Under the pieces are notes generated by a model that did no database searches, was not told the origin of the DNA, and was given only the letters and a program-made list of their open reading frames with translations. Source: Rubrimonas cliftonensis (GTDB lineage Bacteria > Pseudomonadota > Alphaproteobacteria > Rhodobacterales > Rhodobacteraceae). From it: 64,000 nucleotides of DNA. A program made the position numbers and the translations under genes. The DNA is taken from NCBI RefSeq assembly GCF_900107585.1, contig NZ_FNQM01000002.1, positions 1-64,000 of the forward strand, given 5' to 3'. This document shows, one piece after another, positions 27,154-34,674 of the stretch (within the stretch, counting starts at the first letter, position 1; every line of letters starts with the position of its first letter).

Positions 27154-28133
27154 CTACTGTGGCGTAAATCCGACAGAAAGCGCCACAACTCCCCGCCGCC
27201 ACACGCGCTGCGCGAGCAAAAAAGGTGAATGTCGAGATTCCACAGGATCTAAGCAGTCCGACAATCTCGCGAATCCTTCGCTCCCGAAACCCTCGATCAG
27301 GGCCCGTCTCAGCCATATCGTCGCCTGCCGGGCGCGCGAATCGTTAAGATCGCCCAGTTTCGCCATGCGTTCGAGCAGCGCTTCGGCGAGCGCCTCGATT
27401 CCTTCGCCAGTGCCGGCGGAGCAGGTGAGGACCGGGATGGCCGCCCCGCCCTCGCCAGCCCCGCCGTCGCCAGCCGCGAGCGAGAGCGCTCCGCGCAGGT
27501 CCGCCGCGGCGCGCTGCGCGGGCGCGCCCATGTCGGCCTTCGTCACGACGGCGAGATGCGGGATCTCGATGATGCCGGCTTTCATGTACTGCAGCGCGTC
27601 GCCGGCGCCGGGCTGGGCGCAGAACACCACCGTATCCGCCACGTCGGCGATCTCGGTCTCGGACTGGCCGACGCCGACGGTCTCCACGATCACGATGTCG
27701 AACAGCGCCCGCATCAGCACCAGCGCCGGCCATGCGGTCGTGGCCAGCCCCCCGAGCGCGGCGCGCGCCGCCATCGACCGCACGAACACGCCTGCGTCAG
27801 CGGGGTCGGTCGTCAGGCGCGTGCGGTCGCCGAGCAGCGCGCCGCCGGTCCGCCGGGAGGAGGGGTCGACGGCGATCACCGCCACACGCGCGCCCTTGGC
27901 GCGGAACTGGCGGATCAGCGCGTCTGTGAGCGTCGACTTGCCGACCCCCGGCGGGCCGGTGAGCCCGATCGCGTGCCCCTTCGCCGCGCGCCACGCCGCG
28001 TCGAGCATCGCGGCCTGCGCCGGGTCGTCGGGACGGGCCTCGCAGCGCGCGAGCGCCTGCGCCAGCGCCCGCTTGCCGCCGGCGCGCACCCGCTCCAGCG
28101 CCGCGGCGCCGGCCGCGTCGGCCTCCGCGTCGC

Positions 28134-28137
<4 letters not shown>
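27154..28137 (-). CDS. meaB: Methylmalonyl-CoA mutase-associated G protein MeaB (ArgK)
   Basis: A 327-residue G3E-family GTPase that protects and reloads adenosylcobalamin-dependent methylmalonyl-CoA mutase. The P-loop is GPPGVGKST near residue 61, switch regions lie in VIAVDPSSRRTGGALLGDRT, the G3-type IVETVGVGQSE follows, and TKADMGAP gives base specificity. No mutase or propionyl-CoA carboxylase is in the window. Its ATG overlaps the stop of the PPDK-like gene (ATGA), so the two are translationally coupled. Confidence 0.93.
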
Positions 28138-30800
<2,663 letters not shown>

Positions 30801-30884: not shown

Positions 30885-30930
30885 GGCGGGGCAGGGCGAA
30901 GACGGGAGGCCGGGCGGCGCCGGCCGGCTC

Positions 30931-33207
30931 TCAGCCTTCGAGCTTCGAGAAATCCGCCGCGCGGCCCATCGCGTCGCGGATGCGCGCGAGCAGGCACAGG
31001 CGGTTTCGGCGCAGGATGGGGTTCTCGGCGTTGACCACGACATCCTCGAAGAAGGCGTCGATGGGCGCGCGCAGGCCGGCGAGCGCGGCCATTGCTTTGG
31101 TGAAGTCCTCCTGAGCCAGCGCGGCGTCCACCGCCGGCTCGGCGGCGTCGAGCGAGGCGAAGAGCGCCTTCTCCGCCTCGGCCTCGGCGAATTTCGGGTC
31201 GGGTTCCAGCGAATACTCCACCCCGTCCTTCTTCTCCTCCGCCGCGAGGATGTTCGCCGCCCGCCGATACCCCGCCAGCAGGTTCGCGCCGTCCTCCGTG
31301 CCCAGCAGCGCCTGCAGCGCCTCGACCCGGGCCACCAGCGGCACGAGATCGTCGGCCCCCTCGGTGAAGCAGGCGTCGATCACGTCGTGGCGGATGCCCT
31401 TGTCGCGGAGGTGGACGCGCAGGCGATCATGGAAAAAATCTAAAATGCTCCTTCTGATATCTGATGGTGCTTTGATCTTTTGGTGAACCACATCATCATA
31501 AGCGATTGTAAAAATCGATTCTTTAAAGTTTCGAAATATGCACGCCTCACCACTTTCAAGTATTTGTGAGATTTCGGGGTCGAGATTATTTTCATCGTCA
31601 AAAAAGTCTATAGCAAGCTTAAAATGTGTTCCGTCTATTTCTGCGTCAGAAATATGAAGCAGGCGCTTGTTATTCGCAAGTTGTAAAAAAATTATGCTCA
31701 GTGATATTTCAATGTAATGTGATAGAGATATTTTGTGGCTTGTGTCGGAGATATTACGAATGATACCCAGCGCCGCCCGCCTCAGCGCGAACGGGTCCTT
31801 GCTCCCCGTGGGCTTCTCATCAATCGCCCAGAAACCCGTCAGCATGTCGAGCTTGTCGGCCAGCGCGACCGCCACGCTCACCGGCGCCGTGGGAACCGCG
31901 TCCGACGGCCCCACCGGCGCATAATGCTCGGCGCAGGCCGCCGCCACCTCGGGCGCCTCGCCGGCGGCTTCGGCGTAGTAGCGGCCCATGACGCCCTGAA
32001 GCTCGGGGAACTCGCCGACCATGGCGGAGGCGAGGTCCGCCTTGGCGAGGCGGGCGGCGCGCTCGGCCATGTCGGGGTCGGCGCCCACCTTCGGCGCGAT
32101 CTCGCGGGCGAGCGCGGCGATGCGCTCGATGCGGTCGAACTGGCTGCCGAGCTTGTTGTGGAAGGTGACGGCGCGCAGCTTTTCCGCCATCGCCTTCAGC
32201 GGCGTCCGCCGGTCGTTCTCCCAGAAGAACGCCGCGTCCGACAGGCGCGCGGTCAGCACGCGGCGGTTGCCCGCGAGAAGCGCCGCGCCGCCGTCCTGCG
32301 CCGCGATGTTGGCCACGGTGACGAATTTCTCGATGCGCCCCGTGTCGGGGTTGCGCACCGAGAAGAATTTCTGGTGCGTCTTCATCGAGGTGCGCAGCAC
32401 TTCGGGCGGCAGGCTCAAAAACTGCTCGCCGATCTCGCCCATCACGCAGACCGGCCATTCCACGAGGCCGGCGACCTCCGCCAGCAGCCCGGCGTCCTCG
32501 ACCAGCTCCAGACCCTGCGCGAAGGCCAGCGTGCGCGCGTCCGCCTCGATGCGGCGGGCGCGCTCGGCGCCGTCGAGCACGACATGCGCCGCCTCCAGCT
32601 TCAGCGCGTAGTCGTCGAAGCCGGTGACGCGGATCGGCCCCGGCGCGTGGAAGCGATGGCCGAAGGTGACGTCGCCGGCGGCGACGCCGTCGATCTCGAA
32701 GGGGACGATCTCGGCGCCGGCCTCGTCGCTCAGCAGGCACAGGATCGAGTGCAGCGGCCGCACCCAGCGCAGGGCGCCCGCGCCCCAGCGCATCGACTTC
32801 GGCCACGGGAAGTCCCGCACCACGGCGGTGACGACTTCGGCGATCACCTCCGGCGCGGGGCGGCCCGGCTGGTCGATCACGGCGAAGAGCACGGCGCCCT
32901 TCTTGTCGGCGCGCTCCTCAAGCTGGTTGCGCGCAAGCCCGATGGAGCGCAGAAAACCCTCGATAGCCTTCTCCGGCGCGTCGGCGCGCGGCCCTTTGCG
33001 CTCCTCGCGGCGCGGCGTGGTCGCCTTCGGCAGGCCGCGGATGTCGAGCGTCAGGCGTCGCGGCCCGGCGAAGGCGCTGGCGCCCTCGTAGATCAGCCCG
33101 GCCTCCACCAGCCCGTCGGTGACGCGCTTCTTCAGATCATCCGCCGCCTTCGCCTGCATGCGCGCGGGGATCTCCTCGGAGAAAAGCTCAAGCAGCAGGT
33201 CGGCCAT
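30931..33207 (-). CDS. glyS: Glycyl-tRNA synthetase beta subunit
   Basis: A 758-residue beta subunit of the alpha2-beta2 glycyl-tRNA synthetase. It starts with the canonical [17 protein letters not shown] and ends with the anticodon-binding domain ([19 protein letters not shown]). The ATG at 33207 has GGAG 6 nt upstream; the frame extends 13 codons further without support. Residues about 480-593, encoded at 31427-31770, use strongly AT-rich codons (ATA, TTA, AAA, TTT), unlike the rest, yet the frame stays open and rejoins the conserved [21 protein letters not shown]. It is separated from glyQ by three genes, and a PPDK-like gene follows. Confidence 0.95.
31427..31770. other. AT-rich island inside glyS
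   Basis: A hand count of 31441-31740 gives 106 G/C in 300 bases, about 35%, against roughly 70% on both sides. The change is abrupt at both ends. The island is in frame with glyS and encodes about 110 residues, including runs such as [19 protein letters not shown] and [16 protein letters not shown]. The conserved flanking motifs (ALGIIR before, LDFFHD after) are themselves partly written in AT-rich codons, which hints that a homologous glyS segment from a low-GC donor was recombined in. No repeats or transposase fragments border it. Confidence 0.9.
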
Positions 33208-33295
33208 GGCGGGCTCCGGATAAGGCTGACGCGGGGCAAAGCCCATGGCGGCGGGAAGGTCAAGGGCCGCGCGCGACGCTGCGGGCCGGGCGCCC

Positions 33296-34252
33296 TCAGC
33301 GCCCCGGCGCGGGGTCGTCCAGCGGGCCGAACACCGACCAGCCGGTGCGCGCCGCCAGCATCGCCATCGCCTTGGAGCCGATCAGCGAATTGCCCTTCGC
33401 GTTCAGCCCCGGCGACCAGACCGCGAGCGAGGCGACGCCGGGAACCACGCCGAGGATGCCGCCGCCGACGCCGCTCTTGCCGGGGATCCCCACCGAGAAG
33501 GCGAACTCGCCCGAGGCGTCGTAGTGCCCGCAGGTCAGCATCAGCGCGTTGATGCGCCGCGCGCGCTGCGGCGTGATCACCGGGTCGCAGCCGCCGGTTC
33601 GGCCCGCGGCGGCAAGGTAGCGGCCCGCCGCCGCAAGCTGCCGGCAACTCATCGCGATGGCGCAGCAGTGGAAATAGACCTGCAGCACCTGCTCGACGGG
33701 GTGGCGCAGATTGCCCTCGGCGGCCATGAAGTTGGCGAGCGCGCGGTTGCGCATGCCCGTGCGCGCCTCCGACGCCGCCACCCGCGCGTCGCAGCCGACG
33801 CCCTCATCGCCGCAGAGCCGGCGCACCAGCGTCAGCACGTCGAGGATCGCCGCCTCCGGCGTGCGGTCGGCCAGCAGCACGTCCGCGACCACGATGGCGC
33901 CGGCGTTGATGAACGGGTTGCGCGGCACGCCGCGCTCGTGTTCGAGTTGCACGATTGAGTTGAACGGGTCGCCGGAGGGCTCGCGCCCGACCCGCCGCCA
34001 CAGCGCGTCCCCCGCGCGCTCCAGCGCGAGCGTCAGCATGAAGACCTTGCAGACCGACTGGATGGAGAAGCGGACGTCCGCGTCGCCGGCCGCCGCCGGC
34101 GGTCGCGCGGCGTCGACCGGCGCGACGGCGACGCCGAAGCGCGAGGGGTCGACCCCGGCGAGCTCCGGGATGTAGCTCGCCGGCGCGCCGCGCTCGGTCT
34201 CGCGCGCCATGGCGGCGGCGACGGCGTCGAGCGTCGCCTGAAAGCGGCTCAC
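33296..34252 (-). CDS. glsA: Glutaminase A
   Basis: A 318-residue glutaminase with a serine beta-lactamase-like fold, hydrolysing glutamine to glutamate and ammonia. The catalytic Ser-x-x-Lys is in [13 protein letters not shown], preceded by [44 protein letters not shown] and [17 protein letters not shown] follow, all family hallmarks. I place the start at the GTG at 34252, which overlaps the stop of the upstream gene (GTGA); the open frame to 34405 lies inside that gene. It is inserted between the DUF6446-like gene and glyS. Confidence 0.93.
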
Positions 34253-34674
34253 TCCACCACTTCGCGCCACTGGAACGCGCGCCCGTCGGGATAGACCGCG
34301 ACGATGCGGCGGAAGCCCTGCGGCTCCCGCCCCGCCTCCACAGCCCGCGCTCGGCCGGCTTCGAGATCGGCCCCGAGCGCTGCGGCGTCGTAGCAGTCGA
34401 ACCACTTCGGCGCGACGAGCGGCGCAGGGTCCGCCGCTTCGGGCGCGCCTTCGAGCGCCGCGGGATCAATGGTGAAGCAGCCGCGCAGCTTCAGCGGCGA
34501 GCTGTCGCCCGCCAGCCCGCGATAGTCGGAGACGGGCGTGTCGTTCTCGCCGACCAGCACCGACGTCCTGCCGTCGTCGCGCTCGTACCAGGCGTATACC
34601 TGCGCATACCAGAGCGCGGCCCCGAAGAGCGCGGCGAACGCCAGCAGAGCGATCATCAATGTTCTGCCCGACAT
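34249..34674 (-). CDS. Membrane-anchored DUF6446-like protein
   Basis: A 141-residue protein with one N-terminal membrane helix (residues about 5-23, [19 protein letters not shown]) and a soluble domain with two Cys (LRGCFTIDP and WFDCYDAA) that could form a disulfide outside the membrane. It resembles the small DUF6446-type proteins found between glyQ and glyS in Rhodobacterales; I recognise it by position and pattern, not by known function. Its stop overlaps the glsA GTG. Confidence 0.7.

Follow-up and report, generated by a model that had tools for sequence, protein, structure and literature searches.

Genes for the core enzymes of translation are expected to rank with the best conserved and least mosaic of a bacterium. 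How, then, does the glyS gene of Rubrimonas cliftonensis, which encodes the β-subunit of glycyl-tRNA synthetase (GlyRS), come to hold an AT-rich island within its reading frame? The gene lies in a window of 64,000 nucleotides, the whole stretch of contig NZ_FNQM01000002.1 analysed here (positions 1 to 64,000), and was compared with glyS genes of the Rhodobacteraceae and of other families. The island is one allele of a cassette whose hypervariability is seen across the Rhodobacteraceae, and it is probable that this cassette is exchanged by recombination and, with less certainty, that it is kept diverse by frequency-dependent selection.

The island and its place in the enzyme

The argument refers to the following features of the window:
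30931 to 33207, minus strand: glyS, glycine--tRNA ligase beta subunit, 758 residues (TIGR00211, PF02092 and DALR_1; 7yse_C, E 2.4e-104)
31427 to 31770, minus strand: AT-rich in-frame island, residues ~480-593, the gene's own allele of the hypervariable cassette (35.8% GC)
31453 to 31755, minus strand: cassette core of 101 residues, the query of the donor searches
31741 to 31806, minus strand: 5' (upstream) edge, loop GSKD and helix H19, residues 468-489, aligned to E. coli G473-R482
31402 to 31467, minus strand: 3' (downstream) edge helix, residues 581-602, in which R595 matches E. coli R531

Over the 344 bp of the island the guanine-cytosine (GC) content is 35.8%, against 71.5% in the remainder of glyS and 71.9% in the whole window, where the next-lowest 340-bp stretch reaches 59.4% (10-base steps). 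In 100-bp windows the GC fraction steps from 0.74 (31300-31399) to 0.34-0.38 (31450 to 31749) and back to 0.76 (31850-31949). The minus-strand open reading frame (ORF), which opens at 33246 and probably starts with MADLLLELF at 33207, is stop-free through the island, and the conserved motifs at its two edges are written in AT-rich codons (GGT ATC ATT CGT and ATT TTA GAT TTT TTC CAT GAT). An earlier note on this DNA had described each of these traits, namely about 35% GC (106/300 over 31441-31740, which a recount reproduced exactly), surroundings of about 70% GC, sharp edges, a preserved glyS frame and AT-rich edge codons, and the description stands throughout. The GC content at third codon positions (GC3) of the insert is 0.32. 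The island lies inside a 583,907-base contig and occurs once in its own genome (G000, a 98-contig draft).

The protein is a regular (αβ)2 GlyRS β-subunit, scoring 753.7 bits against NCBIfam TIGR00211 (cut-off 300) and 609.8 bits against PF02092 (tRNA_synt_2f; cut-off 29.2), with DALR_1 also matched. In the E. coli enzyme, one structural report lists acceptor-stem contacts of the tRNA with G473, D474, D476, R481, R482 and R531, that of D474 being made via the backbone (PMC9908026). All six positions have counterparts in the window protein by alignment, with D474 replaced by S; the LRR that precedes the island falls on R481 and R482, and the R in FFHDR, just past it, on R531. As the HD domain is given as residues 341-540 in another report (PMC8464048), alignment places the site in the HD domain, between helices whose E. 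coli counterparts touch tRNAGly, and the island takes the place of the short connection between these two tRNA-contacting helices. The E. coli β-subunit (7yse, 7eiv) is thus like the window protein in its whole fold and in the tRNA-contacting residues on either side of the site, and unlike it in having a short connection (approximately residues 491-519 by alignment), where the compared Rhodobacteraceae have from 28 to more than 160 variable residues.

AlphaFold2 models the window protein with a mean predicted local distance difference test (pLDDT) score of 87.9 and with confidence in the core; the best structural match of this model is E. coli GlyRS with tRNA (7yse_C; Z 35.5, 638 residues, root-mean-square deviation 4.8). 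Helices are predicted at residues 474-489, 495-515 and 581-602, and most of 516-575 is of low confidence. For the Paracoccus cassette L229, which has three relatives in its alignment, the model has a mean pLDDT of 76.9 and an insert block at 54-87, with helices predicted at 166-193, 198-211 and the start of 224-252. For L229 the prediction points, with moderate confidence, to a cassette that forms a helical extension.

Variation and probable exchange of the cassette among relatives

From genome sets holding one genome per species, 230 loci were read. Both anchors were present in 222 of them, and merging 13 duplicates gave 209 distinct genes, with L112-L141 (weak matches of the island search) and L142-L165 (class search) left out. 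Eight loci without the required anchors were dropped from the counts: L040, L055, L189, L197 and L258 are open through the site as far as read, L018 is cut at a contig end, and L031 and L233 are without an anchor. L197 (G244) is among the longest GlyS inserts: over about 160 residues from where the site begins, it shows no FFHDR motif.

Single-linkage clustering at E 1e-3 sorted the 209 inserts into clusters of 51, 13, 4, 4 and 4, then of three and two, with 83 singletons. The largest cluster is the native form, near-native in composition and carrying the motif EIADHGVFGAAF, and the 13-member cluster consists mostly of short related loops. By length and family, 51 genes are native-form, 113 have long non-native inserts and 45 are short. 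The segment lies outside the common native form in 158 of the 209 genes, so the window allele is no one-off, and the earlier note's view of it as an unusual mosaic is not supported. In L009, from the one other genome of the genus that was compared, the insert is unrelated and likewise GC-poor (0.48-0.50 versus 0.72-0.75). No compared relative has the segment of the island, and the refuting condition set in the note, close relatives with the same segment in normal codons, therefore has no bearing here. Alphaproteobacteria of other families mostly have a short connection (24-64 residues in 19 loci with a clean end), with a GC content that is native or at most ~0.1 lower; one more locus of this set is without a clean end and three are unread. 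Longer connections outside the family are those of L025 (74 residues) and L027 (95 residues), with GC 0.50 versus 0.57 and 0.63-0.65.

Trimming reduced 17 of the 158 non-native inserts to fewer than 24 residues, and these were excluded from the domain scans described below; the other 141 share no common sequence (mean column identity 7%). The N-terminal GlyS stretch has 81-82 residues in 157/157 distinct readable stretches, which makes the variation specific to the cassette site, with one exception (G575). This exception is a Paracoccus GlyS (L305, G575:C5) with a second, unrelated insert near residues 86-160, which contains IRADLVIGDVPFEIKK, reminiscent of a PD-(D/E)XK nuclease motif; a Pfam search with an approximate query sequence gave no support for this. 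A second hypervariable site at the GlyS N-terminus is not indicated, the length being constant in the readable stretches and G575 a one-off in the sample.

Unrelated inserts occur between nearly identical flanks. Where flank identity is 95% or more, 9 of 32 pairs have an insert in common, and where it is 90-95%, 23 of 632 do; native-form genes or short loops account for several of these pairs. In the Paracoccus pair L236/L257, flanks that are 98.4% identical as protein (DNA identity 0.94 and 0.97 on the two sides) enclose unrelated inserts, and the 3' identity breaks sharply between gac and CTCCTC. Likewise, the inserts of Ruegeria atlantica and R. halocynthiae (L065/L070) have no detectable similarity, with flanks 97.6% identical over a 250-residue core and 95.1% over a longer one. 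Related inserts are also found between dissimilar genes: those of L003 and L043 are 42% identical (E 3e-15), with cores only 63% identical. By these alignments, cassettes are replaced rather than altered by mutation.

A midpoint-rooted tree of the 87 Paracoccus genes was built from flanking DNA, at most 450 nt upstream and 300 nt downstream of the insert, G024 being taken as Paracoccus because its loci are identical to named Paracoccus loci; because the tree comes from glyS flanks only, any recombination there would obscure its branching. In this tree, no clade corresponds to any of the 16 multi-member clusters, although L229 and L241, of the same cluster, are sisters. Parsimony requires 73 changes of insert family, compared with a minimum of 55 and a shuffled mean of 75.3. 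These 87 genes hold 56 insert families, 40 of them seen once (Chao1 134, coverage 0.54). The family of L170, L176, L229 and L241 has six matches in 125 Paracoccus genomes, each beside the glyS HD block, and that of L003 and L043 is present in one of 394 family genomes, L003's own. As a control, two Paracoccus contigs with about 77 kb of synteny were compared at the DNA level and seven breaks were examined: two fall inside glyS (at the cassette and at the N-terminal site of G575), a third falls in an Ala/Pro-rich linker (77% GC), and four are not spanned by ORFs in both genomes. In this one pair and one ~77-kb region, unrelated in-frame replacement inside conserved genes was found in glyS only. 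Collectively, these comparisons strongly indicate exchange of the segment between glyS genes. In the window, the neighbours of glyS (27154-30800 and 33296-34674) are a glutaminase (PF04960) and a DUF6446 protein directly upstream and, downstream, a pyruvate phosphate dikinase and a MeaB GTPase.

Constraint, edge signature and source of the inserts

The inserts are open in frame far beyond chance: from composition, the 113 long non-native inserts have a mean probability of 0.024 of an open frame (2.7 expected), and shifted frames are open in 5 of 226 cases. In three of four close non-native pairs, the ratio of nonsynonymous to synonymous substitution rates (dN/dS) is 0.21, 0.11 and 0.12; the fourth is saturated at synonymous sites. 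Insert dS versus core dS in these three pairs is 0.55/0.23, 2.12/0.85 and 2.69/1.05, an excess of about 2.5-fold that fits older alleles or weaker codon bias. Within many insert families the members are of equal or near-equal length.

Low GC is widespread among the long non-native inserts, which average 0.51 (standard deviation 0.05), with a GC3 of 0.52 against 0.83 in their hosts (n=113). Insert and host GC3 are weakly correlated in these genes (r 0.21), compared with r 0.73 in the native form (n=51). Most long members of families with 26-49% identity keep a GC3 near 0.5 whatever the host, as in L060 (0.49, host 0.91), L073 (0.43, host 0.77) and L190 (0.50, host 0.84), the exceptions being L021 (0.78) and several short members. 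Since diverged family members keep this value, low GC is mostly a standing property of the cassette pool rather than the trace of a single recent acquisition. Among the 113, the window allele is the extreme, with the lowest GC (0.36) and the largest deficit (-0.35), and its AT-rich edge codons suggest that the last swap brought the edges from another glyS.

A synonymous signature at the cassette edges offers a separate clue to the exchange mechanism. For conserved residues at the edges, long-insert genes choose unusual synonymous codons, with G or T before the cassette (TTG, GGG, CGG) and C-ending ones after it (CTC CTC TCC TTC CTC CAC GAC CGC). Measured against each gene's own codon usage, divergence at the edges versus elsewhere is 0.88 vs 0.24 in 63 Paracoccus long-insert genes (p 1.7e-7), 0.63 vs 0.17 in 50 long-insert genes of other genera (p 6.8e-9), 0.35 vs 0.18 in 45 short genes (p 0.0025) and 0.26 vs 0.19 in 49 native-form genes (p 0.09), p-values that are indicative, since neighbouring columns and related genes enter them. 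A pyrimidine run of at least 15 follows the cassette in 42% of long-insert genes (synonymous null 1.5%), 16% of native-form genes (1.4%) and 9% of short genes (1.0%). The signature is strand-asymmetric, with a C-free tract before and a polypyrimidine tract after the cassette, and strongest in long-insert genes. On both sides, the strand rich in G at wobble bases is the one that a break within the cassette would turn into the invading 3' tail, as for Chi-type sites.

Several sources of this signature were rejected or found no support. An RNA or DNA hairpin between the G-rich and C-rich edges was rejected: in 108 low-GC loci the energies of cognate and mismatched duplexes are -38.78 and -38.58 kcal/mol, with a z of -0.52 relative to the synonymous null (-0.80 in the native form). 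A single Chi-like word shared by both edges on the G-rich strand finds no support, no 6-, 7- or 8-mer being present on both edges in at least 12 of 113 loci; the five-letter GGCGG reached 12 of 113 on both edges, and TGGAG and CCTTC were little or not enriched on the 5' side. Nor can one donor's codon usage produce both edges, as leucine codons are rich in CTG and TTG before the cassette and in CTC after it.

Searches for a source of the window allele were largely negative. The cassette core matched only its own genome at E 1e-3 among 394 family genomes (30 other family genomes appear among matches at E up to 0.5, all with E of at least 0.0116). In 385 class genomes it matched its own and one other, weakly (E 4.9e-4, 29% identity, within a 1388-residue frame of a 0.9-Mb genome), and it had no match at E 1 in 50,697 phage and 72,556 plasmid records. 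Nothing pointed to a viral shuttle: an IMG/VR scan with one GlyS gave no relative, and the glyS-bearing records of the phage and plasmid sets either match the HD block at less than 60% (14/14 phage records) or belong to other genera, most of these being large or chromosome-sized replicons. Several phage records carry glyS, some only 2-9 kb long, and may be bacterial contamination or prophage-flank entries. Among known domains, PIMT_C was rejected for the island (Pfam E 0.0041; 17.5 bits, below the cut-off of 22.9), and nine Pfam and nine PADLOC families that matched one insert each (best ChaB, 6.8e-5, and DruC, 9.5e-4) were judged chance or weak; PHROGs gave no match to the 141 non-native inserts. 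Scanned in full against Pfam at E 1, the protein has no intein or homing-endonuclease domain, and Rfam gave no match of any kind at gathering score over 30900-33300, a self-splicing intron included.

These results bear on the origin that the earlier note had proposed, recombination with the glyS of a low-GC donor rather than insertion of unrelated DNA. Several of its points are upheld: the island is foreign in composition, is in frame, replaces a segment without disrupting the gene and has edges in AT-rich codons. The exchange between glyS genes also survives as strongly indicated, whereas the special low-GC donor was neither found nor needed to explain the composition: neither the 394 family and 385 class genomes nor the phage and plasmid records yielded one, and the 113 long inserts average roughly 51% GC almost regardless of the host. 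A single homologous recombination with the glyS of an AT-rich relative, in a gene otherwise unremarkable, would explain the GC3 of 0.32, the AT-rich codons over both conserved edges and the protein motif kept at both; we consider it unlikely as the whole account, given the lack of a donor at E 1e-3 in the family, the one weak match in the class and a site that is hypervariable and mostly low in GC among relatives. It is compatible with our reading as the last step for the window allele.

Explanations and meaning

According to the proposed explanation, homologous recombination in the conserved flanks would swap entire cassettes among strains and species, drawn from a standing pool of at least dozens of cassette families. 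The diversity of this pool may, with less certainty, be maintained by negative frequency-dependent selection, the most plausible agent being an antagonist, such as a protein of a phage or a toxin of a competitor, that would recognise this part of an essential enzyme and that rare versions would escape. The window allele may have obtained its edges from another glyS in its last swap. Features of a recombining hypervariable domain are found here, namely unrelated centres between near-identical flanks and a centre family independent of the flank phylogeny. A more elaborate version, in which GlyRS of the Rhodobacteraceae has, in its tRNA-binding HD domain, a multi-allelic recognition locus under antagonist-driven frequency-dependent selection, with evolved recombination-promoting DNA at both edges, is conceivable and on balance doubtful.

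Several points weigh against this explanation. The window allele is without the edge signature (pyrimidine run 8, C-free run 7), and native-form genes show a weaker signature. Sampling is uneven: Paracoccus supplies 87 of the 209 genes, six are from other families (L023, L024, L025, L027, L029 and L030), and one set of 80 loci represents the best 80 of 589 candidates. The clusters take in weak similarities, and the short loops of the 13-member cluster may be ancestral. Flanks of swapped inserts have no clear extra divergence, except in a 27-base bin adjoining the insert on the 5' side. Since 36 of 500 shuffles of the Paracoccus tree need 73 changes or fewer, a weak phylogenetic signal is possible. 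The raised insert dS could come from weaker codon bias and not from older alleles. No insert convincingly matches a defence, toxin or phage family in Pfam, PADLOC or PHROGs. Finally, recombination between strains is an extrapolation from species-level patterns, and the cause of cassette diversity is a proposal.

A tolerant loop that accepts arbitrary, functionless in-frame DNA, replaced or lost by drift, is about as improbable as the single import. Four genes (L012, L014, L017 and L020) have only 28-31 residues at the site, so that a long insert is dispensable for charging, and the lack of convincing domain matches would also be expected of such a loop. Arbitrary DNA is difficult to reconcile with the low dN/dS of the three computable pairs (0.11-0.21), the equal or near-equal lengths in many families, the recurrence of related inserts in distant flank lineages and the synonymous constraint at the edges.

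Less probable still is a selfish element, either an in-frame mobile element of the rickettsial palindromic type or a segment-rewriting retro-element of the diversity-generating type, which could leave a synonymous signature at both edges, strongest in long-insert genes. Rickettsial palindromic elements have many related copies per genome and a palindrome over the whole element, whereas the island is single-copy in its own genome, has no long inverted repeat, and has only palindrome arms of 10-13 nt (85-90% complementary) inside 31350-31850. Diversity-generating retroelements have a template repeat and a linked reverse transcriptase; no second copy of the island was found in the draft genome. 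The insert family traced through 125 genomes occurs only in glyS, and the 141 non-native inserts lack the common sequence of an element.

Very fast point evolution of one homologous segment, in line with inserts being more diverged than flanks within families, is hardly tenable: genes whose DNA is 94-97% identical on either side of the site carry unrelated inserts that differ in length, and families recur across the tree. An assembly artefact, which the sharp GC steps could suggest, can be set aside given the open frame, the conserved motifs on both sides, the length of the contig and the presence of comparable segments in independent genomes.

A hypervariable cassette of this kind has parallels in known systems. 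Flagellin, pilin and the target-recognition domains of HsdS have conserved ends and unrelated centres exchanged by recombination, as the glyS cassette does, but they are surface proteins or DNA-recognition subunits, whereas the GlyRS β-subunit belongs to a cytosolic essential synthetase. The tips of polymorphic toxins, which come with immunity genes, are cassettes of ~80-130 residues in many unrelated families of low GC, and the glyS cassette resembles them in all three respects; it differs in lying inside an essential enzyme and in having no convincing toxin or immunity match. Fungal heterokaryon-incompatibility loci, described as under balancing selection, share a narrow footprint of such selection with the glyS site by analogy only, their function being eukaryotic self/non-self recognition (PMC11138114).

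Such variability is normal in surface proteins; what stands out is its presence in an aminoacyl-tRNA synthetase, part of the core translation machinery. Among the matches listed in a literature search of titles and abstract openings, mostly open-access, no report described such a cassette in an aminoacyl-tRNA synthetase. This part of glyS is unsuited as a phylogenetic marker, and it offers a compact system for studying the swapping of protein modules within an essential gene. If the cassette is, as it appears, under protein-level constraint, it would imply an unrecognised interaction at GlyRS, and its natural alleles would provide a list with which to find the partner.

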